A DNA stretch of 64,000 bases, taken from assembly GCF_020511155.1 (NCBI RefSeq), contig NZ_CP041216.1:4154001-4218000 (forward strand). The letters run 5' to 3'. A program made the translations under genes and the position numbers. Below, piece by piece: positions 24,303 to 48,947 of the stretch. Numbering within the stretch: position 1 is the first letter of the stretch; each line of letters begins with the position of its first letter. This DNA comes from Shewanella glacialimarina. Lineage in GTDB: Bacteria > Pseudomonadota > Gammaproteobacteria > Enterobacterales > Shewanellaceae. The notes beneath the pieces are model-generated. The model did no database searches and had not been told where the DNA came from. It saw only the letters and a list, made by a program, of their open reading frames with translations.

Positions 24303-24312
24303 GGGTTCACTG

Positions 24313-32569: not shown

Positions 32570-34365
32570 TAGATCCCCCCCTCACTAACACGCTTCATGA
32601 TGCTACTAAATAGCCCTTGTTCTTTTCCGTCACCGATGACTAACTTGCGATCTAGTAATAGATTATTATGTTCGCAACTGGTTTCAGATACTAATGCACA
32701 AGAATGACAAGCGGCTTTATTTAACCCCATGACACCCTGAGTATCCAATTCGCTACATACCGGATCATTAGAGCACCAATTGGCAGTTTCAAGTGCAGCA
32801 ACAATAGCAGGGAACAATCTGTGCGCCTCCCCTTGTTGTACTAGTCCTCCCAAGCTACCTTCTGAATCACCATCTGCGGTATAAATTAATACACCGGCTT
32901 GCCCTTCTGCTGCATAAATCCGTTCTCGTAAAGAACCGCTTGAGTATCCACTTTCAAAACTTAACTGACGAATAATTAAATGAGCAAACGTATGCAAAGC
33001 AATGAACTTTGCTGAAGGTTCTGGTAAGTAAGTAGAAGTAACATTAGCGTAGCGACTTAACACACCGGATAACCTAGGTATTAAGAATTCACTAGACGCA
33101 TATTCCCAATCCTCAAGTGCAGTTTGGTCAAACTCAATGAATACTCCTTCTCCAAACACCTCACAAGCAGGCAACCATGGTTTTTGTTTTGAGTCACCAT
33201 GCATCAAAACAGGATTATCATCTGGCTTAATCCTTTCAAAACCACAGAATGCTCGAACCTCTCGAAGTTTATCTAATAAGACAACTTTTGATATTAGACT
33301 GTGACAGCCAAATGTTTCCTCTCCAGCAAAATTAGCAATTCGAGCTTTAAAGTTGTCAGTCTGCTTATCTTCGATGTCAGTAGCACTTAACACCTCCCAC
33401 TCTGCAACTCGTAGGTCTTCGTCTTTGGGGATACGGAATACTCTAGGAGGTTCTCCGCCTCCTTCTACTGCGCCCAAAATTGCATCAATGGAAAAACCAA
33501 ACTCTTCCGCTAAATACTCAGCATAGAGCTTAACTGCGCCTTCTTTACCACGTTCTCTAGCTCTTAATAGATTGTCATAGTCTTCACAACCTTGGATTTT
33601 ATCAATAATACTGTTACCTATTGACGATGATTCATAAGGTATATCGAGAGCTGAACGAATTATTGGGTAGTAAAGGTTACTCGCACCACGCTGAAGAACA
33701 TGTAATGGTTCATCACACTTTTCACTGTAATCTTTATTAAACTCCCAAGGCTGCTTATTTGAACACTTAATTTTAAGGGCGCCATCATCCATTATTCTTG
33801 CTAATGAATTTTTTGCACCACAATGTTTACAATGTACCTCCAAAGCACCCAACCCACTTCCCATATCTTTTCTAGCTTTAAAATATAGATCTGTCTTTGG
33901 GGATGAACATTTTGATTCCCCCCCCATGTGTGCCCAACGATCCCATGGTATATCTTGAAGGTGTCCTTTGTTACAAGCCGCGACGAATCGCATTGGAGCT
34001 AGGGATTTATTATTGCAGTTTTTGTTTTGACAAACTGGTACTCCACTTTCATTTAAAGGGTCATCTTTATGCCAACGCCCTAAATGTCTGCATTTTGGAC
34101 AAAACATCCAAGCAGGAAAGCGCACTGTCATTAATGCATTTTTTTTATGAACGTTTTCCCAACGACTCTTAAGGATAGGTGGTTTTTTGAGTGACCAAAC
34201 CCCCGCCTCTCTTGTTAAACGCTCTAGCTTTATCTCATCTAGATTTTTAGGCCAGTGTTTAATATCCATAAGAATCAGGGACTCATCACCAATATCAATG
34301 ATTGAACCCGGGCCAAAAGGACTAATTAATTGAGAGCTACGATAACTACGATTAGAATCAGTCAT
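32569..34365 (-). CDS. drmB: DISARM protein DrmB (DUF1998)
   Basis: This 598-residue protein has several zinc-ribbon cysteine clusters: CPKCRHLGRWHKDD with VCQNKNC (about 90-120), CKHCGAKNSLARIMDDG, and C-terminal C-x2-C elements. The hallmark DUF1998 segment HTFAHLIIRQLSFESGYSSG (about 458) is present. The N-terminal SYRSSQLISPFGPGSIIDIG is typical of DrmB. In DISARM, DrmA and DrmB form the DNA-binding translocase complex. The ATG at 34365 follows AGAGGT and overlaps drmA by eight bases; a GTG at 34374 is an alternative. Assignment is confident at the family level. Confidence 0.88.
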   Translation of the reverse strand: MTDSNRSYRSSQLISPFGPGSIIDIGDESLILMDIKHWPKNLDEIKLERLTREAGVWSLKKPPILKSRWENVHKKNALMTVRFPAWMFCPKCRHLGRWHKDDPLNESGVPVCQNKNCNNKSLAPMRFVAACNKGHLQDIPWDRWAHMGGESKCSSPKTDLYFKARKDMGSGLGALEVHCKHCGAKNSLARIMDDGALKIKCSNKQPWEFNKDYSEKCDEPLHVLQRGASNLYYPIIRSALDIPYESSSIGNSIIDKIQGCEDYDNLLRARERGKEGAVKLYAEYLAEEFGFSIDAILGAVEGGGEPPRVFRIPKDEDLRVAEWEVLSATDIEDKQTDNFKARIANFAGEETFGCHSLISKVVLLDKLREVRAFCGFERIKPDDNPVLMHGDSKQKPWLPACEVFGEGVFIEFDQTALEDWEYASSEFLIPRLSGVLSRYANVTSTYLPEPSAKFIALHTFAHLIIRQLSFESGYSSGSLRERIYAAEGQAGVLIYTADGDSEGSLGGLVQQGEAHRLFPAIVAALETANWCSNDPVCSELDTQGVMGLNKAACHSCALVSETSCEHNNLLLDRKLVIGDGKEQGLFSSIMKRVSEGGI

Positions 34366-37300
34366 TTTTTTCACCTCTAACTAGGATATGAGTTTCTGTA
34401 TCTACACTACGCATGGAGTTAAGAGTCTTCCATGCGCCATCATGCTTATCACTATCAAAAGACTTAAATAAAGGTTCAAATTGTTTCCCTGCACCACCAT
34501 TCTCATACAATTGAACCGGAGATTTTTGACTGTTAACCCGCTCACTCCATTGGTCGATTAGTGAATCCAAGTAATCAAATACCTTTTGTTTCTCCCTTTG
34601 GTCCATACCAACCATAGAGGCTTTGATACGCTCTTTAAACACGCCTAGAATATTTATAAATTCTGCAGAGTCTTTGTTAAAATATCTAACACTTTTATTT
34701 TCACGTAGATAACCAGTCATTCGAACAACAGCTATTAATGAAGCGTGTAATGCACGCTCTACTGCAGGCATAGCCCATGGAGTTACACTAGTTGGTTCAA
34801 CGTAGCGATAGAGCGCTTGGTGATAACTTTTGAAAGATTCATAATGGGAACGATCGCGAGGCTTGGTAGCTGAGTACTGTGTAAATACGATGCCTGGGGG
34901 TCTCTTTTTACTACGACCAACACGGCTTGATGCCTGAATATACTCGGAGGTAGCTTTAGGCTGGCCAGCAATAAGCATCATACCTAATCGTCCAATATCA
35001 ACACCAACTGATATCATGTTTGTACAAGGTAAAATGTCTATCGCTCCGTCAGGATGAGTAACTCCTTTATCTAGTTTAGCTAAGACTTCCGGAATACGAG
35101 GGCCCTTAACGTTAGCACTAAGCTCCTCAACCAGTTGAATATCTCTTATCTCTTTTTTATCTTCCGCAATAACACCGACTCGGGCTGGAATATCATCTCG
35201 AGATAAGGTCATCGTTTTACCTAACTCTCTACGGCTATTATGATATATAGGCAATGTCCAATAGCTATCAAGTATTAAATCCTTAAAACCTAGGTGTTGT
35301 GGTGCTTGAATTAATGAAGCACCAAGCTGAACTAACCCCGTTTGCCCTGTATGTCCTGCAGGCATAACCCCAACATAAAGACGACCCGGATTATCTTTAT
35401 CCTCTTTAGAAAAAAAGGAGTCTGACTCATCAGTACCTGAAGGAGGGAAAATGGAGACATTTCTACCAAATAGCCTATTCACCTGATAATTGGCACTTCG
35501 AATTGTAGCAGTAGCGGCTATAATCTTTGGTTTAGCACCTAAAATCTCCATGATGCTATCAAATCCTGCTTCATAAATTCCGGCTATTGTCCCTAAAGGC
35601 CCTGAAATCAGATGCAACTCATCCTGTATGATTAAGCCCGGTGACCGCACCTTCCCATTGCCAAAAAATGCAGAGGCTTCTGACTTCCATGTTAAACGAG
35701 CGAATTTATCTATTGTGCCAATCAACAAGCTCGGTGGCTTGCAATACAGAGCATCATCTACTACTTGGACAGGGAGATGTTCATGAAACTCGCATGTATC
35801 ACTTGGGCACATAAAGCTAAAATGACTATGAGGATCACTCTTAACACCATAATCACAATTATTTTCAGAATGGTGTGCTGGAAAAATGGAAGTGCCGCAC
35901 CAAGGACAAACCTGCAACTGAAAAGGATTTTCTGGCTGATCTGATTCTCTCTCCCTGAGATAGGCTTCGTGTGCATCCTGATACGAATTAGGCGAGCTAG
36001 CAGCACCGACCCAAAGCCCTAGACTAAATGTTTCAGCTCCTAGACTCTCTGGTTGATTTTGCCGAAGAATTTCAAGAGCACAAATTAAACTACCTGCTCT
36101 TTGAAATTGCTGCGATGTCAGTAGCCTTAATGTATAACGTTTAATGACAGAAGTACCACCGCCCATTTCTCCAAATTTTAAACGACGATAAATCATTTCC
36201 CAAGCAGCTACAGCTAAATAAGCTTCAGTTTTCCCACCACCAGTAGGGAACCACAGTAGATCTACATCATCATGAGAGGAAGATAAGTGTCCTTCCTTAT
36301 CTGGTATAAGTGACTCCAATACTAATAATTGGAATGCCAATTGGAAAGGACGCCAATTAAACTTGCCTAATATTTCACTGCCAAAATATTCTGGTGTTTC
36401 ATAGCCCCAGTTTCTACTTTTACTACTACCAGAATATTTACTACCTGAGTGAATCATTTGCATTAGCATCGCTTTATTCGCCAATCGAAATGCTTTCATA
36501 GCTGGCTCATCAGCGGCTAAGCGTTCTATGCCTGAATACATGCGCTTTGAAGCGACCCTAAGTCTTAAAATGATTCTCTCTTTGGCTGAGAGATAACGCG
36601 GGTCTAATAACTCAGCCTCCAATTCATCTATCCAATGGCTGTATACATCTGCGAGTTCTGTATAGTCACTTAACAACTCAGTCGCTGATACATTATCAAT
36701 ATCTGCGATTCGATGAATGCTTAGCATTTCACCAGCGAGACTACTGACTTTTGTTTGGTCTAACTCAGTAGTAAACCCTTTGACTTCATAATGCGGAATA
36801 ACTTCGGTAATTAATGTTGTTGGGGTATTACTTTTAGTCGGTATATACCAGTCTACGGCAACACCATGGCCTACAGCCCATGGAATTCTTTTGCGATAAG
36901 TTAACGCCAATTCTTTTTGTTCATCATCCAGTTTGAATCGATCACTACTTGGATACTCAATAATACTACCCGCTGTAGTAGCAACCTTAATTTGGCACTG
37001 ATACAGACAATCACTAGGATCTAGTTGTTCACCAGACTTAGATTGATTTGAAACTGCAATCGTTATGATTTTTCCTGATACATAGGGACGAATAGCAACA
37101 TCTAAACGGGCACCATTGTTAAAAATGGATTTTTGCAAACTGTCTGTCGCAGAAAGGTCTACTATACTGACATGATGTAAGGGCTTACGTTGCCACTCTT
37201 TCTGCTGGTCTTTGCTATATCCACCAGCTGTAATTTCTATTTCGAAAATAGATGAGCTTTGAGCTGCAAACGACAACGCCATAGAAGATGGTTTGAAGTC

Positions 37301-37510
37301 ATTGCTTAATGCCTCTGTTGTAGAGTCTTCACTATCACTTTCGTCAAGCTCGTCCCTTAAAACTGCTGGAGGGAAAAGAGTACCTGCGAGATAACGCTTA
37401 TGAGGAGCATCTGACAATAACTCATGCTCTCCATTCCATGGGCCCACTAACTGCTTGCTAACGTAATTAAGCAACTGTTGACGAGCGCTTTCAAAGTCTT
37501 CCATTGACAT
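34358..37510 (-). CDS. drmA: DISARM superfamily 2 helicase DrmA
   Basis: This 1050-residue SF2 helicase shows Walker A LWFPTGGGKTEAYLAVAAWE (about 423), a DELH box IIQDELHLISGPLGTIAG (about 632), motif III AATATIRSA and motif V/VI SVGVDIGRLGMMLIAGQPKA then SSRVGRSKKRPPG (about 863). A zinc-ribbon insert lies near 535 (CPWCG ... CPSDTCEFH). The DELH version of motif II and length near 1000 residues fit DrmA. The gene is the promoter-proximal gene of the operon drmA-drmB-UvrD-like-unknown. The start at 37510 has GAGGGG upstream. Confidence 0.88.
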   Translation of the reverse strand: MSMEDFESARQQLLNYVSKQLVGPWNGEHELLSDAPHKRYLAGTLFPPAVLRDELDESDSEDSTTEALSNDFKPSSMALSFAAQSSSIFEIEITAGGYSKDQQKEWQRKPLHHVSIVDLSATDSLQKSIFNNGARLDVAIRPYVSGKIITIAVSNQSKSGEQLDPSDCLYQCQIKVATTAGSIIEYPSSDRFKLDDEQKELALTYRKRIPWAVGHGVAVDWYIPTKSNTPTTLITEVIPHYEVKGFTTELDQTKVSSLAGEMLSIHRIADIDNVSATELLSDYTELADVYSHWIDELEAELLDPRYLSAKERIILRLRVASKRMYSGIERLAADEPAMKAFRLANKAMLMQMIHSGSKYSGSSKSRNWGYETPEYFGSEILGKFNWRPFQLAFQLLVLESLIPDKEGHLSSSHDDVDLLWFPTGGGKTEAYLAVAAWEMIYRRLKFGEMGGGTSVIKRYTLRLLTSQQFQRAGSLICALEILRQNQPESLGAETFSLGLWVGAASSPNSYQDAHEAYLRERESDQPENPFQLQVCPWCGTSIFPAHHSENNCDYGVKSDPHSHFSFMCPSDTCEFHEHLPVQVVDDALYCKPPSLLIGTIDKFARLTWKSEASAFFGNGKVRSPGLIIQDELHLISGPLGTIAGIYEAGFDSIMEILGAKPKIIAATATIRSANYQVNRLFGRNVSIFPPSGTDESDSFFSKEDKDNPGRLYVGVMPAGHTGQTGLVQLGASLIQAPQHLGFKDLILDSYWTLPIYHNSRRELGKTMTLSRDDIPARVGVIAEDKKEIRDIQLVEELSANVKGPRIPEVLAKLDKGVTHPDGAIDILPCTNMISVGVDIGRLGMMLIAGQPKATSEYIQASSRVGRSKKRPPGIVFTQYSATKPRDRSHYESFKSYHQALYRYVEPTSVTPWAMPAVERALHASLIAVVRMTGYLRENKSVRYFNKDSAEFINILGVFKERIKASMVGMDQREKQKVFDYLDSLIDQWSERVNSQKSPVQLYENGGAGKQFEPLFKSFDSDKHDGAWKTLNSMRSVDTETHILVRGEKND

Positions 37511-37998
37511 TACAACCCCTCTGCGATTGTGAATATTTTGTTGTTAACATAACATTCGACCTCACATAACTGAATAAACCAAGTTCTATTAATATACTAC
37601 TAAACAGCAACTTACCAGAGTTTTTTGATTGGTTTAATCTAAAAACATGTCTTTCACGTCTATATTTAATCTCAGGGCATTTCGGTAAAAAAAGTTCTAT
37701 ATTCGCATTTAACTGGAGGTTAAACTTGAGTCGGCTCAATTAATAATGTCACATCTTTTTGGCTCTTATAGTTTCACGGTCAAAGTGCCTAGCGATCAGG
37801 GGCCAAGACAATCGTTTATGAAGGGCGACTTTATCTGCGTTAGATTCGAAACGTCCTTCTTTATCGCCTTCTACAATTCAAAATAGTTTCTGCTGATATT
37901 TTTATTCCAAGATAAGTAAAAATTTGTGACTTATAATCCGTAGACCTTTAAAGCCACACATATGATAATTAGCTCAAACAACATCACAGGAAGCACTA
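37511..37998. other. intergenic region upstream of drmA
   Basis: About 490 AT-rich bases separate drmA (leftward) from a 68-residue ORF (rightward). It should contain the drmA promoter. I see no convincing -35/-10 pair, hairpin or repeat; several small frames lack ribosome binding sites. Confidence 0.4.
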
Positions 37999-38205
37999 AT
38001 GAGTAAAATATCAGTCATAAACCTTCCACATGAGGAAACTTATCTTGGATTTGGTATTTGTATTGAGCCTAATCCAGATCAGTACAACGAGGGCTTTGCA
38101 TGGTCAATAAGCAAAGATGATGAAGAGTATGATTGCGGATTAGATTTTGAAGTTCAGCAGGCTCTTGAAGCCGCTTATAAGGCTATCGAAAAGTTAATTA
38201 GCTAA
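37999..38205 (+). CDS. small acidic hypothetical protein
   Basis: This 68-residue protein, MSKISVINLPHEETYLGFGI and onward, ends in a helical FEVQQALEAAYKAIEKLIS. It is acidic and soluble, with an AGGAAG ribosome binding site before the ATG. No family is recognised. Its stop overlaps the stop of the convergent XRE gene by four bases. It lies between the DISARM-like and HEPN-MoxR-vWA modules. Confidence 0.5.
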   Translation: MSKISVINLPHEETYLGFGICIEPNPDQYNEGFAWSISKDDEEYDCGLDFEVQQALEAAYKAIEKLIS

Positions 38206-38444
38206 TCGACAGCCTTAACCATTTTTAGGTGGTTAAGGAGTGTTACAACAAATTCTGATTGACTGACACCTAAAGCCAAAACGATCGTCTCTAATGAGTC
38301 CAAAGTAATATTTCGAACACCACGCTCTACTCCTGAGATGTAAGTTCTATCTATCCCTGACTTCCTTGCCAATTGCTCTTGGCTCAAACCAGCTTCAAGA
38401 CGTAAGCTTTTCAATGTAGATGCTGTTACCTGTCTAAAAATCAT
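38202..38444 (-). CDS. XRE family helix-turn-helix regulator
   Basis: This 80-residue protein is little more than a Cro/C1-type helix-turn-helix: LKSLRLEAGLSQEQLARKSG IDRTYISGVERGVRNITLDS LETIVLALGV. It probably represses or modulates the neighbouring defence genes. It lies downstream of the HEPN gene on the same strand with a 150-base gap that contains an inverted repeat (38526-38555), so it may have its own promoter. Confidence 0.85.
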   Translation of the reverse strand: MIFRQVTASTLKSLRLEAGLSQEQLARKSGIDRTYISGVERGVRNITLDSLETIVLALGVSQSEFVVTLLNHLKMVKAVD

Positions 38445-38525
38445 ACTCGTTTCATCCTTGGATGTAATTATCTCTAGAATCAGCTTCTCAAACTAAAAAT
38501 TCAACAGACTATAAGTAACATAACT

Positions 38526-38555
38526 AAAAATACTACTTATCAAAGTAATATTTTT
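38526..38555. repeat. imperfect palindrome downstream of the HEPN gene
   Basis: AAAAATA-CT-ACTT and its complement AAGT-AA-TATTTTT are symmetric around position 38540, with only the central bases and one 2-base step unpaired. It could be the HEPN operon terminator or an operator for the XRE gene; sequence alone does not decide. Confidence 0.4.
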
Positions 38556-38596
38556 TATCTCCAAGCTTTCATCTTTTAAGGTATAACTCATCCAAG

Positions 38597-39130
38597 CTAA
38601 GCTTGATCTATCGCAAGGTCAGTAGTTTCAACTAACTTCTTAAAAAATGTCAGGCACTTTTTCATGTCCGGGCGGCTGACTAGATGGGTTGCTTGCGTGT
38701 CATTGACCGAACGATGGACAGCTTCGCCTCTTTTCTTAATCCATTGGTTCAATTTAGATTTGGCTTGTTCAGCATCGCCATCAATCCAAGTCCATTTATC
38801 TGTAACATCATTGTGTAGAAAACGTTCAAACATCACCTTAGTATTTTTCGAGTTCGGTGTATGAAAGTACCTCAATTCCCTTTCTAAGGTAGATGTAATG
38901 AAACTTGCTACTTTTGAACCTTCCAGAGTCCGTAAATCAGCGGTTAACCTTTCTTCAATGACATCTTCCACATAGGTTTCCCACGCAGTTAACGTCATGA
39001 TCAATGCAGCTCTTTTAAGCTCTTCAGGCTCTCTTTCTCTACCCTCCAGCTGGTTTAAATGATCGTAGGCCTGCAAAATTCGTTCTGCGTCTTGAATTGC
39101 GTTCTCAAAATTGTCTCTCGCTTTAGACAT
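38597..39130 (-). CDS. HEPN domain protein, candidate RNase effector
   Basis: This 177-residue all-helical protein resembles the RiboL-PSP/MAE_28990-type HEPN family. It has a first-helix polar motif LTAWETYVEDVIEERL (about 47-62) and the RNase signature R-x4-H at R134-GEAV-H139 (KKRGEAVHRS). HEPN proteins with this motif are metal-independent endoribonucleases, often toxins in defence systems, acting as dimers. The ATG follows AAGGAG by five bases. It lies 16 bases after the vWA gene on the same strand, so it is cotranscribed with the MoxR-vWA pair and is the likely effector. RNase activity is inferred from the motif. Confidence 0.78.
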   Translation of the reverse strand: MSKARDNFENAIQDAERILQAYDHLNQLEGREREPEELKRAALIMTLTAWETYVEDVIEERLTADLRTLEGSKVASFITSTLERELRYFHTPNSKNTKVMFERFLHNDVTDKWTWIDGDAEQAKSKLNQWIKKRGEAVHRSVNDTQATHLVSRPDMKKCLTFFKKLVETTDLAIDQA

Positions 39131-39146
39131 AAGTACTCCTTTACCT

Positions 39147-40727
39147 TTAATGTTTATTATTTTGAAGATCTAACCAGCTTGAAAACAGATGTAGAGGGTC
39201 ACAGATTTTGTCCATAGGTGACAAACTATCTCCAATGACAACACCATGAACGCTCATTGCGCGTTGCTCTTTCCTGTTTTTAATTTTTCGAGATAAGCCT
39301 GACGACACTGTAAACTCGCCATCGCTTACCAAAAGAATGTCAGCCTGCAGCCATTGCTTCTCATCACTTCTTTCTAACGCCATATTGAGAGGGCCTTCAA
39401 CGTCTGTGCCGCCACCGAATGACATCGACAAAAAGAGGATCATTTGCTCAAGCCCGGCTTTATCAGGTGTAAGCTCCATTTCCTTTACTTCGCCTTTACT
39501 GCCAAACAAATAAACAAAGCAGGCTCGTTTTTCTTTCTTTGCAACACTGATGCACTGCAGAACAAGCGCCTTAGCAACATTCTCTGGTGTTCCAGTCATA
39601 GAACCAGAAGTATCTAAACACACAATCATAGGACCACGATTGCGATTTAGCTTATTTCCAGAATGGCTTTCTTTGGCATCTTGTTCTTGCTCCGTTAGCT
39701 GGGTCACCATCTCAGTACCTTCAACGGCATAACTCAACAGAGCATGTTCAGCTCTGCGAGCATGCCATAATTTTTTAAGTACTGGGTGGCCGAAAAAAGC
39801 AGCTTCTTGTGGCAGCATTCGACTAATAGAGTCTGAACGAGTAATACCTTTGGTTTCCATCGGCACTAAGGGAGTGGTAATTTCGACATCATGGCGAAAA
39901 GTCATGCTCATACGTGAAATAATTTCTTCAATAATTGGCTCTCCCTCTGTATCTTTCATTCTTCCCAAGGTTTCAATTACTTCACGCAGTTGTGGGATCT
40001 GCTTTACAATCTTTTGCAGCCTAACTAGATTCATCCAGCCATGACTTTGAAACACTCCTTGAGATAGATCCCAACCAAGACCGGTCACTAATCCCAAATC
40101 AGTAAAAACCCCCTCTAACTCTTGCCATATTTCTAGCCTTTCAGACCAGATACTAGGAAGCTTAAATAATTGTCCACCAGCACTGTTTACTAGCTGAATC
40201 CAAGCATTGAGCTCAGCTTGTATTTTAATATCTAAGCGTTGAGCATCATTAAGTGCTAAATGCTTTTGTTTTTTTGAAGAACGGCGTTGCTGTTGAATTG
40301 CTTCCAATTCTAGTCGTAATTGCTCCAGAGCTTCCTTTTCTGCAATGATCGCCAACTGTCGTGATAATGTTGATGTCTGTCGCTGTAAGCTCCCTAGCTT
40401 AACTAATAGGTCACTAAGCAAAGCATCGGTTACCTCTGGGTTATCTTTACAATAGCGCGCCACACCAGATGCCTTTATTGAAGTCGCGATTTCTTGTTGT
40501 ATAACCTCAGGGAGCCATGGGCAAGGTAAAGATATCTCTTCTGCAGCCAACAGTTGTGAACGTAACAGTGCTATTGACTGGCAGCGAGTTGTTAAGTCGC
40601 CACCCGATAAAGTAACCACCGCAGGTAACAACTCATTCGGTAATAACTCAATGACAGCAAACTGATGGTCTAACTGCGCCAACAATCCGACCGAATGCTT
40701 CGTCATCGTTGGATTAGATTCACTCAC
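39147..40727 (-). CDS. vWA domain protein, ViaA-like
   Basis: This protein of about 526 residues has a helical N-terminal region (1-340, with a coiled coil near QRRSSKKQKHLALNDAQRLD) and a C-terminal von Willebrand A domain. The MIDAS motif D-x-S-x-S is visible in IVCLDTSGSMTG (about 371), with the downstream FGGGTDVEGP threonine and VSDGEF aspartate. The architecture is that of ViaA, the partner of the RavA ATPase in E. coli. The GTG at 40727 has AAGG upstream and overlaps the MoxR gene by eight bases; a GTG at 40736 is also open. Confidence 0.85.
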   Translation of the reverse strand: MSESNPTMTKHSVGLLAQLDHQFAVIELLPNELLPAVVTLSGGDLTTRCQSIALLRSQLLAAEEISLPCPWLPEVIQQEIATSIKASGVARYCKDNPEVTDALLSDLLVKLGSLQRQTSTLSRQLAIIAEKEALEQLRLELEAIQQQRRSSKKQKHLALNDAQRLDIKIQAELNAWIQLVNSAGGQLFKLPSIWSERLEIWQELEGVFTDLGLVTGLGWDLSQGVFQSHGWMNLVRLQKIVKQIPQLREVIETLGRMKDTEGEPIIEEIISRMSMTFRHDVEITTPLVPMETKGITRSDSISRMLPQEAAFFGHPVLKKLWHARRAEHALLSYAVEGTEMVTQLTEQEQDAKESHSGNKLNRNRGPMIVCLDTSGSMTGTPENVAKALVLQCISVAKKEKRACFVYLFGSKGEVKEMELTPDKAGLEQMILFLSMSFGGGTDVEGPLNMALERSDEKQWLQADILLVSDGEFTVSSGLSRKIKNRKEQRAMSVHGVVIGDSLSPMDKICDPLHLFSSWLDLQNNKH

Positions 40728-42255
40728 ACAGTTCACCTTCTAAAGCCTCATCTTCAGATACATCCGAAACCATGTATTTAGACTCATCTTCTATCGGTAA
40801 CTTGGCAAATCCAGCCTCTAACTTTAATAACTGCGACAATTGATGTTGAGTATGTGAACGTGCATTTTCAAGGCTGGCCGTGACCTGAGGGAGTAATGCC
40901 TTGTCTAACCAAATGTGGTCATTGAATATTGATGTAGCTGACTCTAGTTGTGTATTTAAAGCTTCAATATGTGATTGAGCAGAATTTTTTAAATCACGTA
41001 CTTGTTGCAATTGGCCTTGAATATGAAATTCAGAGTAAGTAACAGCTTCCATTGCTGGTAAGTAGTCCTTTTCAATCATGATAGGAGTATTGTCTATATT
41101 GCTTCTGTACCGTTGTAATGCTCTAGTACTTTCCTCATTTTCCTCTTTATCCCAATAAAGCAATTTCCCCTCTTTATCAGTCTTCTGCACTTCTCCTGAA
41201 GACTTAATCGTTTCATTCCCTTTAGCATTAATAAATAAAGGTTGCCCCTTAGCATTATTCTTTTGTCTTTGCTGCGTTTGATCAAACTTCAATTTATGAT
41301 CCCAGACAGATATTAAACTAGTCAAATTTTTATGAGAAAACTCACCGTTTATAGCAACAGCGTTTTCGTAAACATTTTTTAGCCCTTGAAGTTCTTCCGG
41401 TTTATTCCAGAGGCAATGAGGCAAAATCCATGCATCATAATTACTGACTTCATTCATCCCAGCAGTAAATGCTGACACTTTCATTAATTTAATAACTTTT
41501 CGCCAGCGACGGTCTGAAACATAAATATCCTCTCGCTGCAAATGTTCTCTAAACGCCTTACATAACTCAATAACAGAAGGTGGCAGTAACACCTTTTCAG
41601 ACAACTTCTGAACTTCTTTGAGATCTTCTAACCTTAGGCGTACCTCCAACTCAGGGTCAAAAGCAGAATCCGATAGCATCAGCAAGCTATGAAAACCCTC
41701 ATTCGATACTGGTGCAACAAAACTTCGCAGCATAAACCTGTCATAGAGCGCAGAGAGTTCCTCTCCTTCAGGTAATTCATTGCTTGCCGCAACAACAGAA
41801 ATTAGAGGGACTGGGTATCTACGATTACCATTGTCAAACTCACGTTCGTTCAGCAGTGTCAGTAAACTATTTAAAATTGCGCTATTGGCTTTAAATATTT
41901 CATCAATAAATGCAACTGAAGCTTCTGGCAAGTAACCACTGGTTAACCGATTGTACCTATCCTCTTCCAGAGCCTTAATAGACAAGGGACCAAATAGTTC
42001 CTCTGGTACAGAAAAGCGCGTTAACAAACGCTCAAAGTAACTAGCCTCGACAAAAACACTTTTTAAACGCTTAGCTAATTCACTTTTTGCTGTGCCTGGT
42101 GGCCCGATTAACAGCACATGTTCACCAGCTAATGCCGCTAATAACATTAGCTTCACTTGCTCATTACGTTCAAGCAGCCCCTTGTTCATTTCATTAATTA
42201 AACTCGCTATTTTTTCTTTGCGTGAAAGCAGGCTGATTGGTGTTTGATTTTTCAA
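40720..42255 (-). CDS. MoxR/RavA-type AAA+ ATPase
   Basis: This 511-residue AAA+ ATPase of the MoxR/RavA class has Walker A GPPGTAKS (51-58), Walker B VAFIDEIFKANS (about 113), sensor-like SVVAASNELPEGEELSALYD RFMLR, and a long C-terminal helical region (380-490). RavA-ViaA-type pairs are thought to act as chaperone-like or complex-remodelling machines. The start is a TTG with AAGGAT eight bases upstream. It is the first gene after a sigma-54-type promoter at 42313-42329 and is coupled to the vWA gene. It is more divergent than housekeeping RavA and sits in an island. Confidence 0.87.
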   Translation of the reverse strand: MKNQTPISLLSRKEKIASLINEMNKGLLERNEQVKLMLLAALAGEHVLLIGPPGTAKSELAKRLKSVFVEASYFERLLTRFSVPEELFGPLSIKALEEDRYNRLTSGYLPEASVAFIDEIFKANSAILNSLLTLLNEREFDNGNRRYPVPLISVVAASNELPEGEELSALYDRFMLRSFVAPVSNEGFHSLLMLSDSAFDPELEVRLRLEDLKEVQKLSEKVLLPPSVIELCKAFREHLQREDIYVSDRRWRKVIKLMKVSAFTAGMNEVSNYDAWILPHCLWNKPEELQGLKNVYENAVAINGEFSHKNLTSLISVWDHKLKFDQTQQRQKNNAKGQPLFINAKGNETIKSSGEVQKTDKEGKLLYWDKEENEESTRALQRYRSNIDNTPIMIEKDYLPAMEAVTYSEFHIQGQLQQVRDLKNSAQSHIEALNTQLESATSIFNDHIWLDKALLPQVTASLENARSHTQHQLSQLLKLEAGFAKLPIEDESKYMVSDVSEDEALEGELCE

Positions 42256-42302
42256 AGCTTATATCCTTATTTAAAGTGACAGTCCGATACAATTTCCGGA
42301 TT

Positions 42303-42322
42303 AATCTAGCTATAGCTAGATT
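42303..42322. promoter_or_regulatory. perfect 20-bp palindrome at the MoxR promoter
   Basis: AATCTAGCTATAGCTAGATT is its own reverse complement. It overlaps the -12 element and the expected transcription start of the sigma-54 promoter, so a bound protein could block transcription. The ligand protein is unknown; the nearby XRE protein is one candidate. Confidence 0.6.
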
Positions 42323-42329
42323 CATGCCA
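42313..42329 (-). promoter_or_regulatory. sigma-54 (-24/-12) promoter for the MoxR-vWA-HEPN operon
   Basis: On the minus strand TGGCATGAATCTAGCTA has GG and GC separated by exactly ten bases, as in the consensus TGGCACG-N4-TTGCW. It lies 58 bases upstream of the TTG start and directly after the gene for a sigma-54 activator, which supports the reading. Confidence 0.7.
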
Positions 42330-42345
42330 ATGTATAACGAACTAT

Positions 42346-43821
42346 TTATATCCCTAGTTTTTTAACTCTATTACTCAATGTTTGATGATTGTTGTAACCC
42401 AGTAATTTTGCTACTTTACTTTTATTCCCATCATGCAGCTCTAGCGCTTTGACAATATAATGGCTCTCAACTTCCGCTAATATGCTATTTATATCAAAGC
42501 CTTGATGAATATCCCGTTCTAAAAGAGACTCTTGTTTACCGTCCATAATAAATAAGGCTTGTCGCATTTCTGCTTCATCGATGCAGTCTGAACCTGACCA
42601 CAATGCAGCTCGTAGTAGCGTCGCCTTCAATTCCCGAATGTTGCCAGGCCATTTGTGTTCTTTGATAACTTTTTTTGCAAGATCGGAAATATTTTTACCT
42701 TGTAATACCGAATGCTCTTTAGCCAAGGTCTGCATTAGTGAGTCAACCAAAAAGTCTAAATCACCTTGTCGCATTCTTAATGGCGGTAATTGCAAGACGC
42801 CTATTGCGACTCGATAAAACAAGTCTTCACGAAACCGACCATGGGCAACTTCATTAATCAAATTTTTATTGGTTGCCGTGATCAATCTAAAATCGCTACT
42901 TTGCTCATCAGAATCCCCTAGACGGGTATACTTTCCATCTTGCAGTACTCTAAGCAACCTGACTTGAACAGCAGCATCCAATTCCCCAAACTCATCTAGA
43001 AATAAAGTTCCGTTATGAGCTTGCTCAAATACACCTGTTTTGTCTGAAACGGCTCCAGTAAAAGCCCCCCGCTTATGACCAAAAAGTATTGAATCAATAA
43101 GCTCTGTTGGGAAAGCTCCGCAGTTAACAGCAATAAAGGCCTTGTCTTTACGGGTGCTGGCATTGTGAATGGCTCTAGCAAACATCTCCTTACCAGTACC
43201 GCTCTCGCCATAAATAAGTACTGGAACATCCTGTTGTGCCAATATTTGTGCCTGGGACTTCAAGACTTGCAAATTAGACTCAATTGTAAGGATGTCATCA
43301 AAAGCAGAATCTATAGGCGCTTCTAATCTGGCTAGGTTATTTAATTCGGATTGGTTTAATTTAGTAACAGCAGGAATATATTGGGCAGATAATTTAAAAG
43401 GTATATTAATGACTTGCACTCCCTGCTCTTTAGAAGCTTGATAAAAAGTGCAAGGGAAACGTGTTTTACCCAGCAAAACCCAAATAGCCTGCATAGCTGG
43501 GGTACCAGGGCTTAGTAAAATACTTAAGTCATAATCGGACTGCACAACTTCTTTCAATAATTGCTCTGCAGCAATATAAATGTCTTCATAATCGATTGGA
43601 GATAAAAGCTTGGCTTTGCGTGCATTAACCTTACACTTCACCCGTTCTGACAGGAGTGATACATACGGTCTTACGTCTTCATCACTATAATTATAGATAA
43701 GTTCAATAACATCAAATTCAGCGGCTTTAATCGTTGTCCAAATAGGACCAGTCATCTGCCCTTCAGACATATTTAGGTCATTTCCACCAATCCAACTTAC
43801 CAGTAATCTTTTTTTTTTCAT
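42346..43821 (-). CDS. sigma-54-dependent activator with CARF-like N-terminal sensor (RtcR-like)
   Basis: This protein of about 491 residues has three parts. The N-terminal 180 residues resemble a Rossmann-like CARF domain: KRLLVSWIGGNDLNMSEGQM, then LSILLSPGTPAMQAIWVLL with an SPGTPxM loop. The AAA+ domain has GESGTGKEMFARAIHNAS, the sigma-54-contacting GAFTGA loop (about 255) and TLFLDEFGELD. A Fis-type helix-turn-helix ends the protein (GNKSKVAKLLGYNNHQTLSN RVKKLG). This layout matches RtcR, which senses damaged-RNA ligands. It lies directly upstream of the MoxR-vWA-HEPN genes on the same strand. The start is uncertain (43821, 43848 or 43869). Confidence 0.82.
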   Translation of the reverse strand: MKKKRLLVSWIGGNDLNMSEGQMTGPIWTTIKAAEFDVIELIYNYSDEDVRPYVSLLSERVKCKVNARKAKLLSPIDYEDIYIAAEQLLKEVVQSDYDLSILLSPGTPAMQAIWVLLGKTRFPCTFYQASKEQGVQVINIPFKLSAQYIPAVTKLNQSELNNLARLEAPIDSAFDDILTIESNLQVLKSQAQILAQQDVPVLIYGESGTGKEMFARAIHNASTRKDKAFIAVNCGAFPTELIDSILFGHKRGAFTGAVSDKTGVFEQAHNGTLFLDEFGELDAAVQVRLLRVLQDGKYTRLGDSDEQSSDFRLITATNKNLINEVAHGRFREDLFYRVAIGVLQLPPLRMRQGDLDFLVDSLMQTLAKEHSVLQGKNISDLAKKVIKEHKWPGNIRELKATLLRAALWSGSDCIDEAEMRQALFIMDGKQESLLERDIHQGFDINSILAEVESHYIVKALELHDGNKSKVAKLLGYNNHQTLSNRVKKLGI

Positions 43822-44027
43822 CCCTAAGCCCAATTCGTATCTATCCATAGTGATCACTACTAGCGTCATTCACATAGATTCATCTAACAGTCAGCAAATC
43901 TACAAGTGCCCTACCATTTATAAGTGATAGGACTAATAATTAAAATATCATGCGGTTACAGCATTTTTCAATGTGAACTTGACGAAATTGATAAGGAGCA
44001 ACAAATTAGATTTAACTCGAAATTAAT

Positions 44028-44216
44028 TTACTCCATCAAATCCCGCTCTTCTATCCTTTCTAAGATCCAATCTTGCACTTCACTTTCTACCCAAGCAACA
44101 CTTCTTTTGCCAAGCTTAGCCGGTTTTGGAAAGGTTTTATCAGCAATGTATTTATAAATAGTCGAACGTCCTAGCCCAGTACAATCCATCACAGCTTTCA
44201 GTTTAATTAGTCTCAT
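44028..44216 (-). CDS. AlpA family phage/island regulator
   Basis: This 62-residue AlpA-like DNA-binding protein (MRLIKLKAVMDCTGLGRSTI then YKYIADKTFPKPAKLGKRSV) has a MerR-like winged helix. AlpA proteins commonly activate integrase or excision genes in P4-like islands. A paralogue on the other strand lies at 46099-46317 and shares FPKP-KLGKRSVAWVESEV. Confidence 0.88.
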   Translation of the reverse strand: MRLIKLKAVMDCTGLGRSTIYKYIADKTFPKPAKLGKRSVAWVESEVQDWILERIEERDLME

Positions 44217-44360
44217 TGTGAATTCCTCATGTTTGATTCACAACATGAGTTGAGCGAGTAAAAATTTAGATGGATGCTGATTACCCCAACACGATTCCAA
44301 CAATTTTCAGATATATATCACTCCTGTGCATAAGCCATTAACTGACTAAAGGAGACTTTT

Positions 44361-44837
44361 ATGCACACCAAACCTAACAACAAAACGGCCTTGCATTGGC
44401 CAACCACTGCGCTTCAAATTCTTGAAAGTGCTGCTAACATCATTGCTGAAAAACTTAACCATCAGGACGTGTACACAAACCCACAAAGCACTAAAGACTT
44501 CCTGTTATACAAGTTAGGGGGTTATGAACGGGAAGTGTTTGGCGTGATGCTACTGAATAGCCAACACCAGCTTATTGAGTTTCGTGAGCTGTTCTTTGGC
44601 ACCATTGATGCTGCCAGTGTGTACCCCAGGGAAGTGGTAAAGGCTGTACTTGAAGTGAATGCTGCTGCGGTTATCTTTGCTCATAACCATCCATCAGGAG
44701 AGTCTGAACCCTCACAGGCAGACAAACAGATAACAAAGAAGCTAACGGATGCTTTGGCGCTTATTGATGTCAGGGTATTGGATCACATCGTTGTAGGGAC
44801 TACGCCAGTTTCATTTGCAGAGCGAGGATTATTATAG
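44361..44837 (+). CDS. island RadC-like JAB domain protein
   Basis: This 158-residue RadC family protein lacks most of the helix-hairpin-helix part of chromosomal RadC and keeps the JAB domain, with the metal-binding signature FAHNHPSGESEPSQADKQIT and ending VSFAERGLL. Short RadC proteins of this type are common in genomic islands and are of uncertain function. It has its own AGGAG ribosome binding site. It is clearly homologous to the chromosomal radC at 13207-13884 but diverged, so it is not a recent duplication. Confidence 0.9.
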   Translation: MHTKPNNKTALHWPTTALQILESAANIIAEKLNHQDVYTNPQSTKDFLLYKLGGYEREVFGVMLLNSQHQLIEFRELFFGTIDAASVYPREVVKAVLEVNAAAVIFAHNHPSGESEPSQADKQITKKLTDALALIDVRVLDHIVVGTTPVSFAERGLL

Positions 44838-44936
44838 CCACTGCCTTTTAACGCCCTGTGTTAACAACTGTCGATAACACCTCGTTATCAAACATCTCTT
44901 TCTTTTCTACTCTCACAACTTACCAGCCACCAGCTA

Positions 44937-44972
44937 GCAGGGGATTAAGGGCATGCGCCCTTAATCCCCTGC
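44937..44972. repeat. 16-bp perfect-stem hairpin
   Basis: GCAGGGGATTAAGGGC and its exact complement GCCCTTAATCCCCTGC flank a 4-base ATGC loop. It lies between the island radC and the DUF2787 gene. The T content downstream is low, so it is either a terminator of unusual form or a structural element. Confidence 0.75.
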
Positions 44973-45003
44973 ATTTGTGTGTTTTGGTGTTAAGGACCGC
45001 TGT

Positions 45004-45408
45004 ATGACCATTTCAATTGATACGGATCAAAGACCTGTTATGCCAGTATCTTTCTATCAGTTACTTTCACAAGAATTAGTCGATACCCAACCACAAGAGG
45101 CGAATGCCATCACGTTGTATTTTAGAGATCCAGATTACTCGCCTGAACGAGGTGGATTTCATCCGGTTGAAGTACGACTTGAGAAACAACTTAATCACTG
45201 GCGTTTAGTCTACGTGACTGATTTTGCCTTTCATGGTTATGAGTTGATTAAGGACATTGATATCTGTTTTAACAGCAAACAAGTTTATAGCTCGATTGGT
45301 GGATGGATAAACCATGATGAAGGTAAAGAGCTCATTGAGTTGTTTAGTGACAATTTCATTAGCTACCACCATATGGATGTTTACCAAGTACAAATTGCAC
45401 TGTGCTAA
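45004..45408 (+). CDS. DUF2787 family protein
   Basis: This 134-residue protein, beginning MTISIDTDQRPVMPVSFYQL, has the DUF2787 pattern: TLYFRDPDYSPERGGFHPVE VRL, YVTDFAFHGYEL and DICFNSKQVYSSIGGWINHD EGKELIELF. The function of the family is unknown; members are found in Vibrio and Shewanella islands beside RadC and AlpA genes, as here. AAGGA lies seven bases upstream of the chosen ATG. Confidence 0.82.
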   Translation: MTISIDTDQRPVMPVSFYQLLSQELVDTQPQEANAITLYFRDPDYSPERGGFHPVEVRLEKQLNHWRLVYVTDFAFHGYELIKDIDICFNSKQVYSSIGGWINHDEGKELIELFSDNFISYHHMDVYQVQIALC

Positions 45409-45424
45409 AACCTACCTTAAATCC

Positions 45425-45455
45425 CAAGTTCCCATAATGGTAAAACGGGAACTTG
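45425..45455. repeat. inverted repeat upstream of the small recombinase gene
   Basis: CAAGTTCCC (45425-45433) and GGGAACTTG (45447-45455) are 9-bp inverted arms with a 13-base spacer. A further GGAACTTG occurs at 45531-45538, immediately before the recombinase start codon. Confidence 0.6.
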
Positions 45456-45541
45456 CAAACCCTTATGTACCAAGGGGTAAGAGCGACAGACCCCTCTGAA
45501 GTACCCAAAACGCCCGGATAGCTCGAATAAGGAACTTGAAC

Positions 45542-46102
45542 ATGGCGGAAGTACAAGCAATCAAAAAGCATGAAACCATTCAACTCATTGGCCATTTATT
45601 AGAAATGCGCTGTAGTAAGCAAATGGCCGACATTTGGAATATCGGCCTTAATCTTGCGCTACGGATTTCTGATTTACTGTCGATTCAATTTAACGATATT
45701 CAAGGAGACCGATTAGTTGTCAAAGAAATGAAAACCGGTAAGCAAGCCAACATTAAACTGAACCAAAAGGTATTGGCTCATATACAGCAAGTCAAACGTA
45801 ACCATCCACACCATATCTACCTATTCCAATCCTTTCGTAATCAGCAATCTAAAAGCATTAAGCCCAGACCGTTAACAAGGCGTGCTGTGGCTAAAGCATT
45901 TGCGTTAGTTGGTGAAGAGTTAAAGTTAGCACTAGGCACTCACTCCATGAGAAAGACCAGGGGCTATCATCTCTACCAAAACACTAAAGACATTGGCCGC
46001 GTAATGAAGATGCTCAGGCATAGCTCTGAGGGCGTTACATTACGATACATTGGGATTACCCAAGACGATGTAGACCAAGACTTTCAGGAGCTTGAATTAT
46101 GA
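45542..46102 (+). CDS. small tyrosine recombinase (catalytic domain only)
   Basis: This 186-residue tyrosine recombinase consists of little more than the catalytic domain, a size like FimB/FimE. Catalytic residues are visible: R in LNLALRISDLLSIQF, H-x-x-R in LGTHSMRKTRGYHLY, H in MLRHSSEG and Y in VTLRYIGITQDDV. It lacks the arm-binding domain of the main integrase. It overlaps the downstream alpA by four bases (ATGA). It may perform excision or inversion, possibly at the inverted repeat upstream; this is inference. Confidence 0.87.
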   Translation: MAEVQAIKKHETIQLIGHLLEMRCSKQMADIWNIGLNLALRISDLLSIQFNDIQGDRLVVKEMKTGKQANIKLNQKVLAHIQQVKRNHPHHIYLFQSFRNQQSKSIKPRPLTRRAVAKAFALVGEELKLALGTHSMRKTRGYHLYQNTKDIGRVMKMLRHSSEGVTLRYIGITQDDVDQDFQELEL

Positions 46103-46317
46103 ATACTCTACAACCCACACCTGAGCACTTACAACTGCTGAAGCTACGACAGGTCATGAAGCTGACTTGCTTGGCTCGCTCAACAGTTTACAAGTACTGC
46201 GCTGACAACAGTTTCCCCAAACCGGTTAAACTTGGCAAAAGAAGTGTTGCGTGGGTAGAGAGTGAAGTAAGGGAATGGATTAAGCAGAAGATGTTTCAAC
46301 GAGTTCAGCTTCGTTGA
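46099..46317 (+). CDS. AlpA family regulator, second copy
   Basis: This 72-residue AlpA-type protein contains LTCLARSTVYKYCADNSFPK PVKLGKRSVAWVESEVREWI. It is translationally coupled to the upstream recombinase, a pairing that suggests control of excision. It is paralogous to 44028-44216, sharing the recognition-helix and wing sequences. Confidence 0.88.
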   Translation: MNTLQPTPEHLQLLKLRQVMKLTCLARSTVYKYCADNSFPKPVKLGKRSVAWVESEVREWIKQKMFQRVQLR

Positions 46318-46534
46318 GCATCCATGCAAAGAAGTGGGCTACCTCCATTTCTTTTTTGGTTAATTGTTAGGTTTACTGCGGCAGTGTTATCACTTGTTCC
46401 TTCAGGTCATGTATCGACCTATCGCTCTCCTATGTTTAGTTATGCTATTGAGTGATGACAGCCTAAACCAATGAACTTGAATAGCTTGAAAATGCCACAG
46501 AACACCCTAAAGGCCTTCAGGTATATATTATCTT

Positions 46535-46551
46535 CTAAAACGCCGTTTTAG
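46535..46551. terminator. short hairpin downstream of the inovirus Gp2-like gene
   Basis: CTAAAACG-C-CGTTTTAG is a 17-base symmetrical element directly after the stop of the leftward gene. It could be a weak terminator. Confidence 0.35.
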
Positions 46552-46552
46552 C

Positions 46553-47227
46553 CTATTTACGACTAGCCCCAAAAGAGTGACTCCTATTACCGTAATGCTT
46601 AGTATCTACCTTAGCAAAGTAACTTAGTCTTTTGAAAACCAATGGATAGTCAGATTGAAAACAATAGGCATCCTTACCTAAAATGTAATACGGCGTATCA
46701 CGAGGAAAGTGAACCAGTGGATTGGCCTGGAAATATTCTATCCCCAACGCACTAGCCCAAGCGTTCACAATTTTAGTCGATAGGTTATGCCCAGGCTGGG
46801 TATAATCACCTAAGGTATGATAGGTATCCTTATTAAAGAATAAAACCACATGATAATGGTCTTGTAAGGCTTCATGCCTTTCTTTTACCCACACAAATCT
46901 GAGTGTGCACGAATGCACACGTTTACCTTCATTTCTCTTTTTACTTAAGTCAGCCTGTATTTGAGCATTAAGGGAAGCAAAGTACCGAGAAATAACATCA
47001 GTACCAAATTCTGATGGGTAGTCATCACACTCTGGTCTACTGGGTAAGTGCAAATCAACTCTTACGATAAACAAACGATTATATTGGTCAAGTGCCAAAT
47101 CTAGCACACGCTGGATAGTCTCTAGATAATTAACCACCAATGGATAATTCTCATTAACGGGTATTCCTCTAAAGTTAGTTCCATTCAGTAAAACTAAGTT
47201 CTTATTCTCATGGTGTCTAGCATTCAT
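46553..47227 (-). CDS. inovirus Gp2-like (YagK/YfjJ) protein
   Basis: This 224-residue protein belongs to the inovirus Gp2/YagK-YfjJ C-terminal family, thought to relate to HUH-type rolling-circle initiators. Landmarks are LFIVRVDLHLPSRP, FVWVKERHEALQDHYHVVLF FNKDTYHTLG with an H-x-H-like dyad region (HYHVVLF), and LGKDAYCFQSDYPLVFKRLS YFAKVDTK. Such genes are frequent in AlpA-bearing islands of Vibrio and Shewanella. A role in island replication or mobilisation is inferred. Confidence 0.82.
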   Translation of the reverse strand: MNARHHENKNLVLLNGTNFRGIPVNENYPLVVNYLETIQRVLDLALDQYNRLFIVRVDLHLPSRPECDDYPSEFGTDVISRYFASLNAQIQADLSKKRNEGKRVHSCTLRFVWVKERHEALQDHYHVVLFFNKDTYHTLGDYTQPGHNLSTKIVNAWASALGIEYFQANPLVHFPRDTPYYILGKDAYCFQSDYPLVFKRLSYFAKVDTKHYGNRSHSFGASRK

Positions 47228-47566
47228 TGTGACTCTCCTATGTGGTATTCATAGGAGTTGTCTTACATGTATTAATTTAGAGATATTGATTATCTAAAGC
47301 CATCACTTTAATGGTGATGGCTAGTTACTTATCACTACTCACATACTAATGAACAGCTATGTAGTATTAACAAACCGACAAACCAGTTATGAAGATGCAG
47401 CCGCTGATGGTGATCGATGAATCAATATCATCCAGATTCAATAGGGTGGCAGAGGTGAACCATTACTCTGGAAATAAATTATTTTTAGTTTTACTTGATA
47501 ACGGCAAAGGTAAGCCATCAAATCTTAATATTTCTGCCATTACTGTTGTCCAATTTCAAAACGATT

Positions 47567-48718
47567 TTAGGTTGTTAATCTATCGCAGGTTTTGCAAAAT
47601 GACTCCATATAAAACTCAGTCACCACTTGATTTCCTGTAAAACCAATAATTGAATAAGTCTGATTAAGCTTTCGCTCATCAGGTTTAATTTCTAAATACT
47701 TTATGACAGATTTAGCCAAAAATAGAACGCAATAGACAGTCATTTGTATTAAAGACAATTGATACTTGTTACCTGATGAAATCCTGCTATCACTCGGATG
47801 CTTATCACTAACGAATTCCGTCAAGACTCTTTCTTTCATCGCTTCGTAATCAAATTTACCCAACTTGAGATACTCTTCCACATTTGCGCAAGCATGTTTA
47901 TTAATCAGAATTCTCCAAGCAGATAGCAAACTTTGACTTCTTTGACCATTGAATATCCCCGCTAGCCTAAGTACCTTAAATGCATCGACAAGAATTACAC
48001 CGTACTCAGGTCGCTCCGCAATTATGTCGAGATGATCTTTAATCTGAGCAGGGTCTTTAAATGCGGCAATATGGAAATACTGGCACACATCGAAGGGGGA
48101 GCTGTATTGCTGAGTTATAAGAATCCGTTTACTTGCCATAAACTTACCAAGATTTAAATGATAATGACTTTTAACCTTACCAAATAATTTCGGTATAACC
48201 ATTCCAGGTAAATGAAAATGAATATACCCTCTTGTCTTCAAAGTACTAATTTGTGACTTAACCCTACGATGACTGACACCCATCAGATCGGCCAATTCAC
48301 TCATTGATACATTATCGACAATTGCCAGTTTATTCGCTCTGCTCAATAAAATAGAAAGCAATAGTCTCAGGCTTTGATTTAGTGAGTGCGCTCTTTGGCC
48401 ATCAATCTCTAAATCTGGAAGCATGAGTGTCTCTATACACTCATAAAACTGTAAATCCTCATCGCTTGAATCTTGAAAATTAAAAAAATCTACCGTTAGT
48501 TTGTACCATGCATTCGATCCTACTTGGCCCTTTATATTTTTGGGCTTCTTACGAATGGCGTAGCCATACTTGACTAGATAATCAAAAGTTTCCTTAGCTA
48601 CGTTTGATGTGACCCCATACTTAATCCTGATATCTTTAACACTCAAATCAATCTGATCACAACCTTGCTCCAGGTCCTTCAATATTTTCATAATAAAAAA
48701 CTTTGATTCTGGTTTCAT
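47567..48718 (-). CDS. winged-helix protein of the island mobility region
   Basis: A protein of about 383 residues from the ATG at 48718; the frame is open to 48952, but that extension is hydrophobic and repeat-bearing, and looks non-coding. Winged-helix-like stretches are visible near the start (VKDIRIKYGVTSNVAKETFD YLVKYGYAIRKKP) and in the middle (NVSMSELADLMGVSHRRVKS QISTLKTRGYIHF). I do not recognise a named family. A replication initiator or regulator for the island is possible, given the iteron-like repeats just upstream (48884-48947). No strong ribosome binding site marks the start. Confidence 0.6.
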   Translation of the reverse strand: MKPESKFFIMKILKDLEQGCDQIDLSVKDIRIKYGVTSNVAKETFDYLVKYGYAIRKKPKNIKGQVGSNAWYKLTVDFFNFQDSSDEDLQFYECIETLMLPDLEIDGQRAHSLNQSLRLLLSILLSRANKLAIVDNVSMSELADLMGVSHRRVKSQISTLKTRGYIHFHLPGMVIPKLFGKVKSHYHLNLGKFMASKRILITQQYSSPFDVCQYFHIAAFKDPAQIKDHLDIIAERPEYGVILVDAFKVLRLAGIFNGQRSQSLLSAWRILINKHACANVEEYLKLGKFDYEAMKERVLTEFVSDKHPSDSRISSGNKYQLSLIQMTVYCVLFLAKSVIKYLEIKPDERKLNQTYSIIGFTGNQVVTEFYMESFCKTCDRLTT

Positions 48719-48883
48719 ATCTATAAATTTATGATTTAAAAATTTTAAATGCACAAGGTAATGCTCTAAAAGAAAGATAGGAAATAAAATACTACCAAAT
48801 ACTTTATATGACAATAGGTAGGTACCATTATAATAATTAAAAACGATGTCACCAACAGCGTCACCAGACGGTGTCATCAGAAA

Positions 48884-48947
48884 TATACAGACGTGGTCTA
48901 ATGACGTTGTTCTCGGCATTAAAAAGACGAGGTATACAGACGTAGTC
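48884..48947. repeat. iteron-like direct repeats upstream of the wHTH gene
   Basis: TATACAGACGTGGTC (48884-48898) and TATACAGACGTAGTC (48933-48947) differ at one base and are 49 bases apart. Related GCGTCACC/GACGGTGTC elements lie just to the left (48858-48875). Confidence 0.5.

Follow-up and report, generated by a model that had tools for sequence, protein, structure and literature searches.

We found that genes for a MoxR ATPase, a vWA protein and a HEPN protein form a conserved unit in Shewanella and Vibrionaceae, of which an RtcR-like protein is the usual but non-obligatory controller, and we favour the view that this MoxR-vWA-HEPN unit is an inducible, mobile defence module. The locus studied here lies in a stretch of 64,000 nt of Shewanella glacialimarina (NZ_CP041216.1, positions 4,154,001-4,218,000; hereafter the window, with G000 as its host genome), in which a first-pass annotation had described four genes on one strand, encoding a sigma-54 activator of the RtcR kind, a RavA-type MoxR ATPase, a ViaA-type vWA protein and a HEPN protein. 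Open reading frames (ORFs) and searches of Pfam, PADLOC and NCBIfam recovered all four genes with these domains (Table 1), and the motifs that it had named were all present, namely SPGTPxM (as SPGTPAM), GAFTGA and R-x4-H (KKRGEAVH, R134/H139). Support for the module comes from the composition and linkage of its genes, the retained catalytic residues, the CARF fold modelled for its activator, the sigma-54 promoter and a mobile setting in a defence island.

Conservation of the MoxR-vWA-HEPN unit

Samples of 130 Shewanella and 298 Vibrionaceae genomes included 23 genomes with a locus of the vWA family, and a HEPN gene was adjacent in all 23. A scan of the genome collection with the vWA alignment returned nine loci, all from Shewanella or Vibrionaceae and all in the order MoxR-vWA-HEPN, and a plasmid of Vibrio halioticoli carries the full series RtcR-MoxR-vWA-HEPN. 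The vWA gene was present in 7 of the 130 Shewanella genomes, with HEPN adjoining it in all seven (that of L038, located by tblastn, is 88% identical) and RtcR directly upstream in six; RtcR also heads 10 of the 16 HEPN-vWA loci of the Vibrionaceae, often from many kilobases upstream. The co-occurrence proposed for four genes thus stands for the last three and only in part for the RtcR-like gene, which leads 16 of the 23 loci. A second gene order, HEPN-MoxR-vWA, was found in Shewanella G485 (L041/L103), where the three genes have a large helicase and what appears to be an Hsp70-like gene as neighbours and no RtcR was seen within the fetched flanks.

In syntenic Vibrio loci, sequence identities indicate that MoxR and vWA were replaced together next to an almost unchanged HEPN. 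L013 (V. sinaloensis) shares its upstream genes with L093/L094 (G675/G742), the MBL and 4-TM proteins of L013 and L094 being 99% and 87% identical, and the HEPN proteins of these loci are 92-94% identical, whereas identity is only 36-38% for MoxR and 33-34% for vWA. Since the pair was swapped while HEPN was kept, MoxR-vWA may represent a variable trigger and HEPN a constant effector. When the states linked and unlinked to MoxR-vWA were mapped on the HEPN tree, four changes were counted, versus a mean of 17.7 after shuffling; at least three of them are forced by well-supported branches, bootstrap convergence being incomplete. It could be argued that there is no unit, RtcR running a shared defence superoperon in which MoxR-vWA-HEPN is passive cargo, given that RtcR-Hsd-(others)-MoxR-vWA-HEPN superoperons exist and that some copies of the module are without RtcR. 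However, the three-gene linkage outlasts every change of neighbours, two gene orders and replacement of the pair, and we regard this explanation as very improbable.

The RtcR-like switch and its candidate promoter

Among full-length profiles, PADLOC RtcR_PspF2 CARF_AAA_HTH matched the activator best (E = 2e-204, residues 21-507), and Pfam assigned Sigma54_activat (217 bits) and HTH_8. We refer to the protein as RtcR-like rather than RtcR because its score with NF038308, the equivalog model for RtcR in NCBIfam, is 302 bits, the cut-off being 650. From its first ATG the ORF spans 42346-43869 (507 residues); the start at 43821, chosen in the first-pass annotation, is more likely than that at 43869 from its agreement with the L012 sequence. 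AlphaFold2, run with an alignment of only four sequences, predicted for the N-terminus a six-stranded Rossmann-like domain (mean pLDDT 69.5) in which the last two strands are adjacent, the topology given for CARF domains (PMC4012209). The leading PDB matches in a fold search were the CARF proteins Csm6, Can2, Cad1, Card1 and Cam1, with E values from 1.7e-5, and the modelled fold is thus consistent with the CARF-like N-terminus that had been suggested.

We located a candidate -24/-12 site (GG-N10-GC) in the gap between rtcR and moxR, where control by sigma-54 predicts it, and similar sites lie just downstream of all 17 intact rtcR-like genes examined, although these loci are not all independent because several are close relatives, and one of them, L020, is a draft contig with the RtcR frame broken in two. 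The site is present whether moxR or hsdR comes next, the spacer between the conserved blocks varies, and the site score was reached by 1.5% of random 220-bp windows from the same loci. With GAFTGA, Walker A and B motifs and an adjacent -24/-12 promoter, the window protein has the features of a sigma-54 activator, and the host genome encodes RpoN. A 20-bp palindrome over the -12 element, AATCTAGCTATAGCTAGATT, was considered as an operator and rejected, as it is not conserved in L012, L036 and L038.

The window activator shares the CARF-AAA+-HTH (helix-turn-helix) architecture and sigma-54 dependence with RtcR of the rtcBA RNA-repair operon. Unlike that protein, it has no rtcBA nearby and stands in tandem upstream of a target operon, and the neighbours that it would control in the same genome are MoxR-vWA-HEPN instead of rtcBA. 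With regard to cyclic oligoadenylates, a search of the host for the Cas10 palm gave only weak matches, which we read as GGDEF proteins; E. coli gives such matches too.

The ATPase pair, the HEPN protein and a proposed mechanism

The closest characterised relatives of both MoxR and vWA are RavA and ViaA of E. coli, whose genes are also paired. MoxR matched bpMoxR (206 bits) and AAA_lid_8 in Pfam, RavA in PDB (4.6e-72) and NF010054 RavA (8.6e-88, residues 13-332), the similarity to RavA stopping at about residue 332. The vWA protein matched VWA_2 (38.6 bits, Pfam residues 370-474 of 529) and NF008230 ViaA (3.8e-57, residues 196-502), and its MIDAS residues, D375-x-S-x-S, T444 and D472, are invariant. 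The window pair nevertheless differs from RavA-ViaA by its linkage to HEPN, by its location on mobile islands and by scores far under the equivalog cut-offs (295 against 681 bits for RavA, 195 against 500 for ViaA). A search of viral contigs with vWA gave no matches, the matches in phage records were weak and some were annotated as ViaA, and no DNA-level copy was found in E. coli genomes. The eight-base overlap of MoxR and vWA given earlier holds if the GTG at 40727 is used, but a start at GTG 40736 would make it 17 bases; the 16-base gap between vWA and HEPN agrees with the ORF coordinates.

The HEPN protein scored 85.1 bits (7.7e-24) against PF18735 HEPN_RiboL-PSP, three times the gathering cut-off of 28.4. 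It carries the R-x4-6-H signature of HEPN RNases, and R134 and H139 are retained in all 54 homologues examined, linked to MoxR-vWA or not, bearing out the motif proposed for this 177-residue protein. Its structure model is all-helical (pLDDT 88). The HEPN fold and the R-x4-6-H site are also found in HEPN-MNT and other HEPN toxin systems, from which the window locus differs in lacking a nucleotidyltransferase partner, with MoxR-vWA in its place. HEPN is present in 26 of the 298 Vibrionaceae genomes and adjoins vWA in 16 (in one, a vWA fragment only), leaving solo relatives in 10 further Vibrionaceae genomes; solo relatives occur in nine further Shewanella genomes (one counted is a fragment), and one module-bearing Shewanella genome holds a second, solo copy. 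On a Klebsiella pneumoniae plasmid HEPN adjoins an integron integrase. HEPN is an independently mobile family. As a separate observation, stand-alone HEPN_RiboL-PSP genes at L005:8761-9543 and L071-L073 lie close to an integron integrase or in a setting that resembles gene cassettes, with the catalytic R and H retained and no antitoxin recognised.

The distribution of solo copies bears on the possibility that the locus is a toxin-antitoxin addiction module, in which MoxR-vWA would restrain a HEPN toxin and stabilise the island, with RtcR setting the level. The operon is compact, with a small overlap and gap, copies occur on integrative elements and a plasmid, and HEPN toxins are common in toxin-antitoxin systems. 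However, close HEPN relatives without MoxR-vWA exist in other Shewanella and Vibrionaceae (a small uncalled antitoxin being possible there), a promoter activated through sigma-54 would be odd for a constitutive antitoxin, and exchange of MoxR-vWA with retention of HEPN is unlike the behaviour of a specific antitoxin. We therefore consider an addiction module unlikely, and, because of these unaccompanied HEPN relatives, MoxR-vWA is more likely an activator or sensor than an antitoxin. A chaperone, RNA-quality or stress module resembling RavA-ViaA, induced by RNA damage and with a HEPN that processes or binds damaged RNA, would make any defence role incidental. The similarity to RavA and ViaA and the response of RtcR relatives to RNA damage (PMC9650030, PMC7790460) agree with such a module, whereas its patchy occurrence in Shewanella on a mobile island, the recurrence of restriction, Druantia, BREX, MZA and DISARM neighbours and a host without RtcB favour defence, and we judge it improbable.

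Under the defence reading, infection or RNA damage would activate the CARF protein, and transcription with sigma-54 would install MoxR, vWA and HEPN. MoxR and vWA may act as a RavA-ViaA-like ATPase/adaptor pair, the exchangeable part, which would sense the trigger or set a threshold and release or activate the constant HEPN RNase; HEPN might then cut cellular or viral RNA, resulting in dormancy or abortive infection, and its products could re-activate the CARF switch. The recurrent link to known anti-virus genes suggests a last-resort defence, the arrest by HEPN presumably following once co-regulated DNA-targeting systems fail. We infer the RNase activity, the ligand, the direction of control by MoxR-vWA and the anti-phage effect. 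The full scheme, a modular RNase defence with an RNA-end-responsive CARF/sigma-54 switch, a MoxR-vWA-gated HEPN as the last stage after DNA restriction, self-reinforcing signalling independent of RtcAB, and interchangeable MoxR-vWA triggers for one HEPN effector, is put forward only tentatively.

Several observations weigh against the defence reading. Because RtcR is missing from 7 of the 23 loci (G485, G777, G670, G698, G690, G547, a fragment, and G582), CARF control is not obligatory. RtcB was not found in the host genome (RtcA was not searched for), whereas activation of RtcR in E. coli depends on RtcAB and is not brought about by oligoadenylates (PMC9650030), so that the signal must reach the window activator differently and sensing of RNA damage cannot simply copy that of E. 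coli RtcR. Linkage to HEPN is not universal for MoxR-vWA ATPase pairs, since pairs of the same broad families without HEPN were found in Azoarcus (L003) and G950 (MoxR_b-vWA_b). Finally, searching PDB sequences with the HEPN profile found no relative and the fold search gave weak matches, HEPN-MNT toxins among them, so that the HEPN assignment relies on Pfam and the conserved motif.

Related systems and the surrounding island

RtcR-like genes also head long superoperons of other defence systems. Two kinds of described system come close to our loci, namely CoCoNuTs (PMC11090510) and MoxR-vWA ternary conflict systems (PMC7159879, PMC8195603). For CoCoNuTs, RtcR-like leaders of defence superoperons, a 3' HEPN module and an RNA-end feedback loop have been proposed, and type II shares with our loci a layout of an RtcR-like 5' leader, intervening DNA-targeting systems and a 3' HEPN-containing RNA-targeting module; the intervening systems include, as here, Hsd, YprA/DUF1998, MBL and 4-TM proteins. 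An RtcR leader, co-directional defence genes and a terminal HEPN module were found in eight to nine Vibrionaceae loci. In contrast to CoCoNuT type II, the place of the CoCoNuT is taken by MoxR and vWA together with a HEPN of the RiboL-PSP family that stands alone, no McrB-type GTPase or McrC-type coiled-coil nuclease was found among the proteins scanned from the window module and adjoining operon, and the module in Shewanella is not last but lies immediately after RtcR, with the other system behind it. Ternary conflict systems likewise have a MoxR-vWA pair proposed to gate an effector and a bpMoxR-type ATPase. Here, however, their third component (VMAP, iSTAND, iSTAND2, TERNS3, FtsH or beta-propeller) is absent and the third gene is a separate HEPN; no effector is fused C-terminal to vWA, the vWA domain itself being C-terminal; and the module occurs in Shewanella and Vibrionaceae under sigma-54/CARF control, whereas theirs are from multicellular bacteria.

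No model of PADLOC 2.0 matched MoxR, vWA or HEPN of the window locus. In the literature searched, combinations of MoxR, vWA, HEPN and RtcR led to CoCoNuTs, the MoxR-vWA systems of the Aravind group and a BREX survey, and the set of four appears undescribed, with the main CARF-classification papers outside this scope and an earlier mention there possible. The suggestion that no named system has this composition thus agrees with PADLOC and that literature, but the idea was foreshadowed by CoCoNuTs and by PMC4012209, which associates RtcR with restriction-modification (R-M). The module is probably a variant in a CoCoNuT-like slot, inducible, with a predicted RNase and abortive in action. If this is true, an effector module would be added to CARF-controlled immunity outside CRISPR, and CoCoNuTs would not be the sole RNA-targeting module of RtcR-led superoperons. 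A four-gene system of about 5 kb would allow tests of which signal the CARF domains of RtcR-like proteins recognise in defence when RtcB is absent and of how MoxR-vWA acts on an effector, and the natural exchange of MoxR-vWA around a near-identical HEPN offers a ready-made experiment separating trigger from effector.

Table 1. Features of the module and its island in the S. glacialimarina window
Feature	Position	Strand	Basis or remark
RtcR-like sigma-54 activator (CARF, AAA+ with GAFTGA, Fis-type HTH)	42346..43821	-	PADLOC, Pfam, CARF fold
Candidate sigma-54 promoter TTGGCATGAATCTAGCT, GG-N10-GC, rtcR-moxR gap	42294..42310 (approximate to a few bases)	-	site conserved 17/17
RavA-like MoxR AAA+ ATPase, C-terminal region different	40720..42255	-	511 residues; NF010054, PDB RavA, bpMoxR
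ViaA-like protein, vWA domain C-terminal, MIDAS intact	39147..40736	-	GTG start, 529 residues; NF008230
Predicted HEPN RNase (RiboL-PSP family), R134-x4-H139	38597..39130	-	177 residues; PF18735, invariant motif
XRE/control-type HTH protein 3' of HEPN	38202..38444	-	library scans
28.1-kb integrative island in yicC	21767..49869	.	27-bp direct repeats and tyrosine integrase
27-bp perfect direct repeats CGCGAGCAGATCCAAAACGTGGAATAA, island ends	21767-21793 (3' end of yicC), 49843-49869		
Tyrosine integrase beside island repeat	21972-23207		
DISARM DrmA and DrmB, adjoining cargo outside module	32569..37510	-	PADLOC, NCBIfam
DrmMII-like cytosine methyltransferase, same DISARM-like cluster	27825..29375	-	family search

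In the window the module is followed by DISARM DrmA/DrmB and the DrmMII-like methyltransferase. The genes 3' of the module in other Shewanella are MZA genes (L036), an MzaB-like gene (L012/L037) or BREX BrxA-BrxB-BrxC (L039, and L040 by synteny). In Vibrionaceae the module is usually last in a superoperon of RtcR, HsdR/M/S, others and MoxR-vWA-HEPN, the intervening genes being Druantia III (DruH/DruE), an OLD-like ATPase or MBL/4-TM. The RtcR-led superoperons at L013:120-8402, L093 and L094 contain type I R-M, Druantia III, MBL (PDC-M48B) and 4-TM, the last two being those listed for CoCoNuTs. A 1112-residue ResIII/DEAD helicase (L099:7465-10803), not assigned to a system, immediately precedes MoxR in several loci of Vibrio. 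Shewanella G418 (L036) likewise has the XRE/control-type HTH gene 3' of HEPN, and the product of this gene is possibly a cargo regulator. Within the DISARM-like cluster, 29565-32569 (-) encodes a 505-residue helicase that resembles UvrD/HelD and contains DUF5710 repeats, as well as a 495-residue protein with no Pfam or NCBIfam match. At 24271-27854 (+), the gene of a 730-residue GHKL-ATPase protein (BbrUII/histidine-kinase-like) overlaps that of a 464-residue protein without family, and the two may represent a further two-gene defence or signalling pair.

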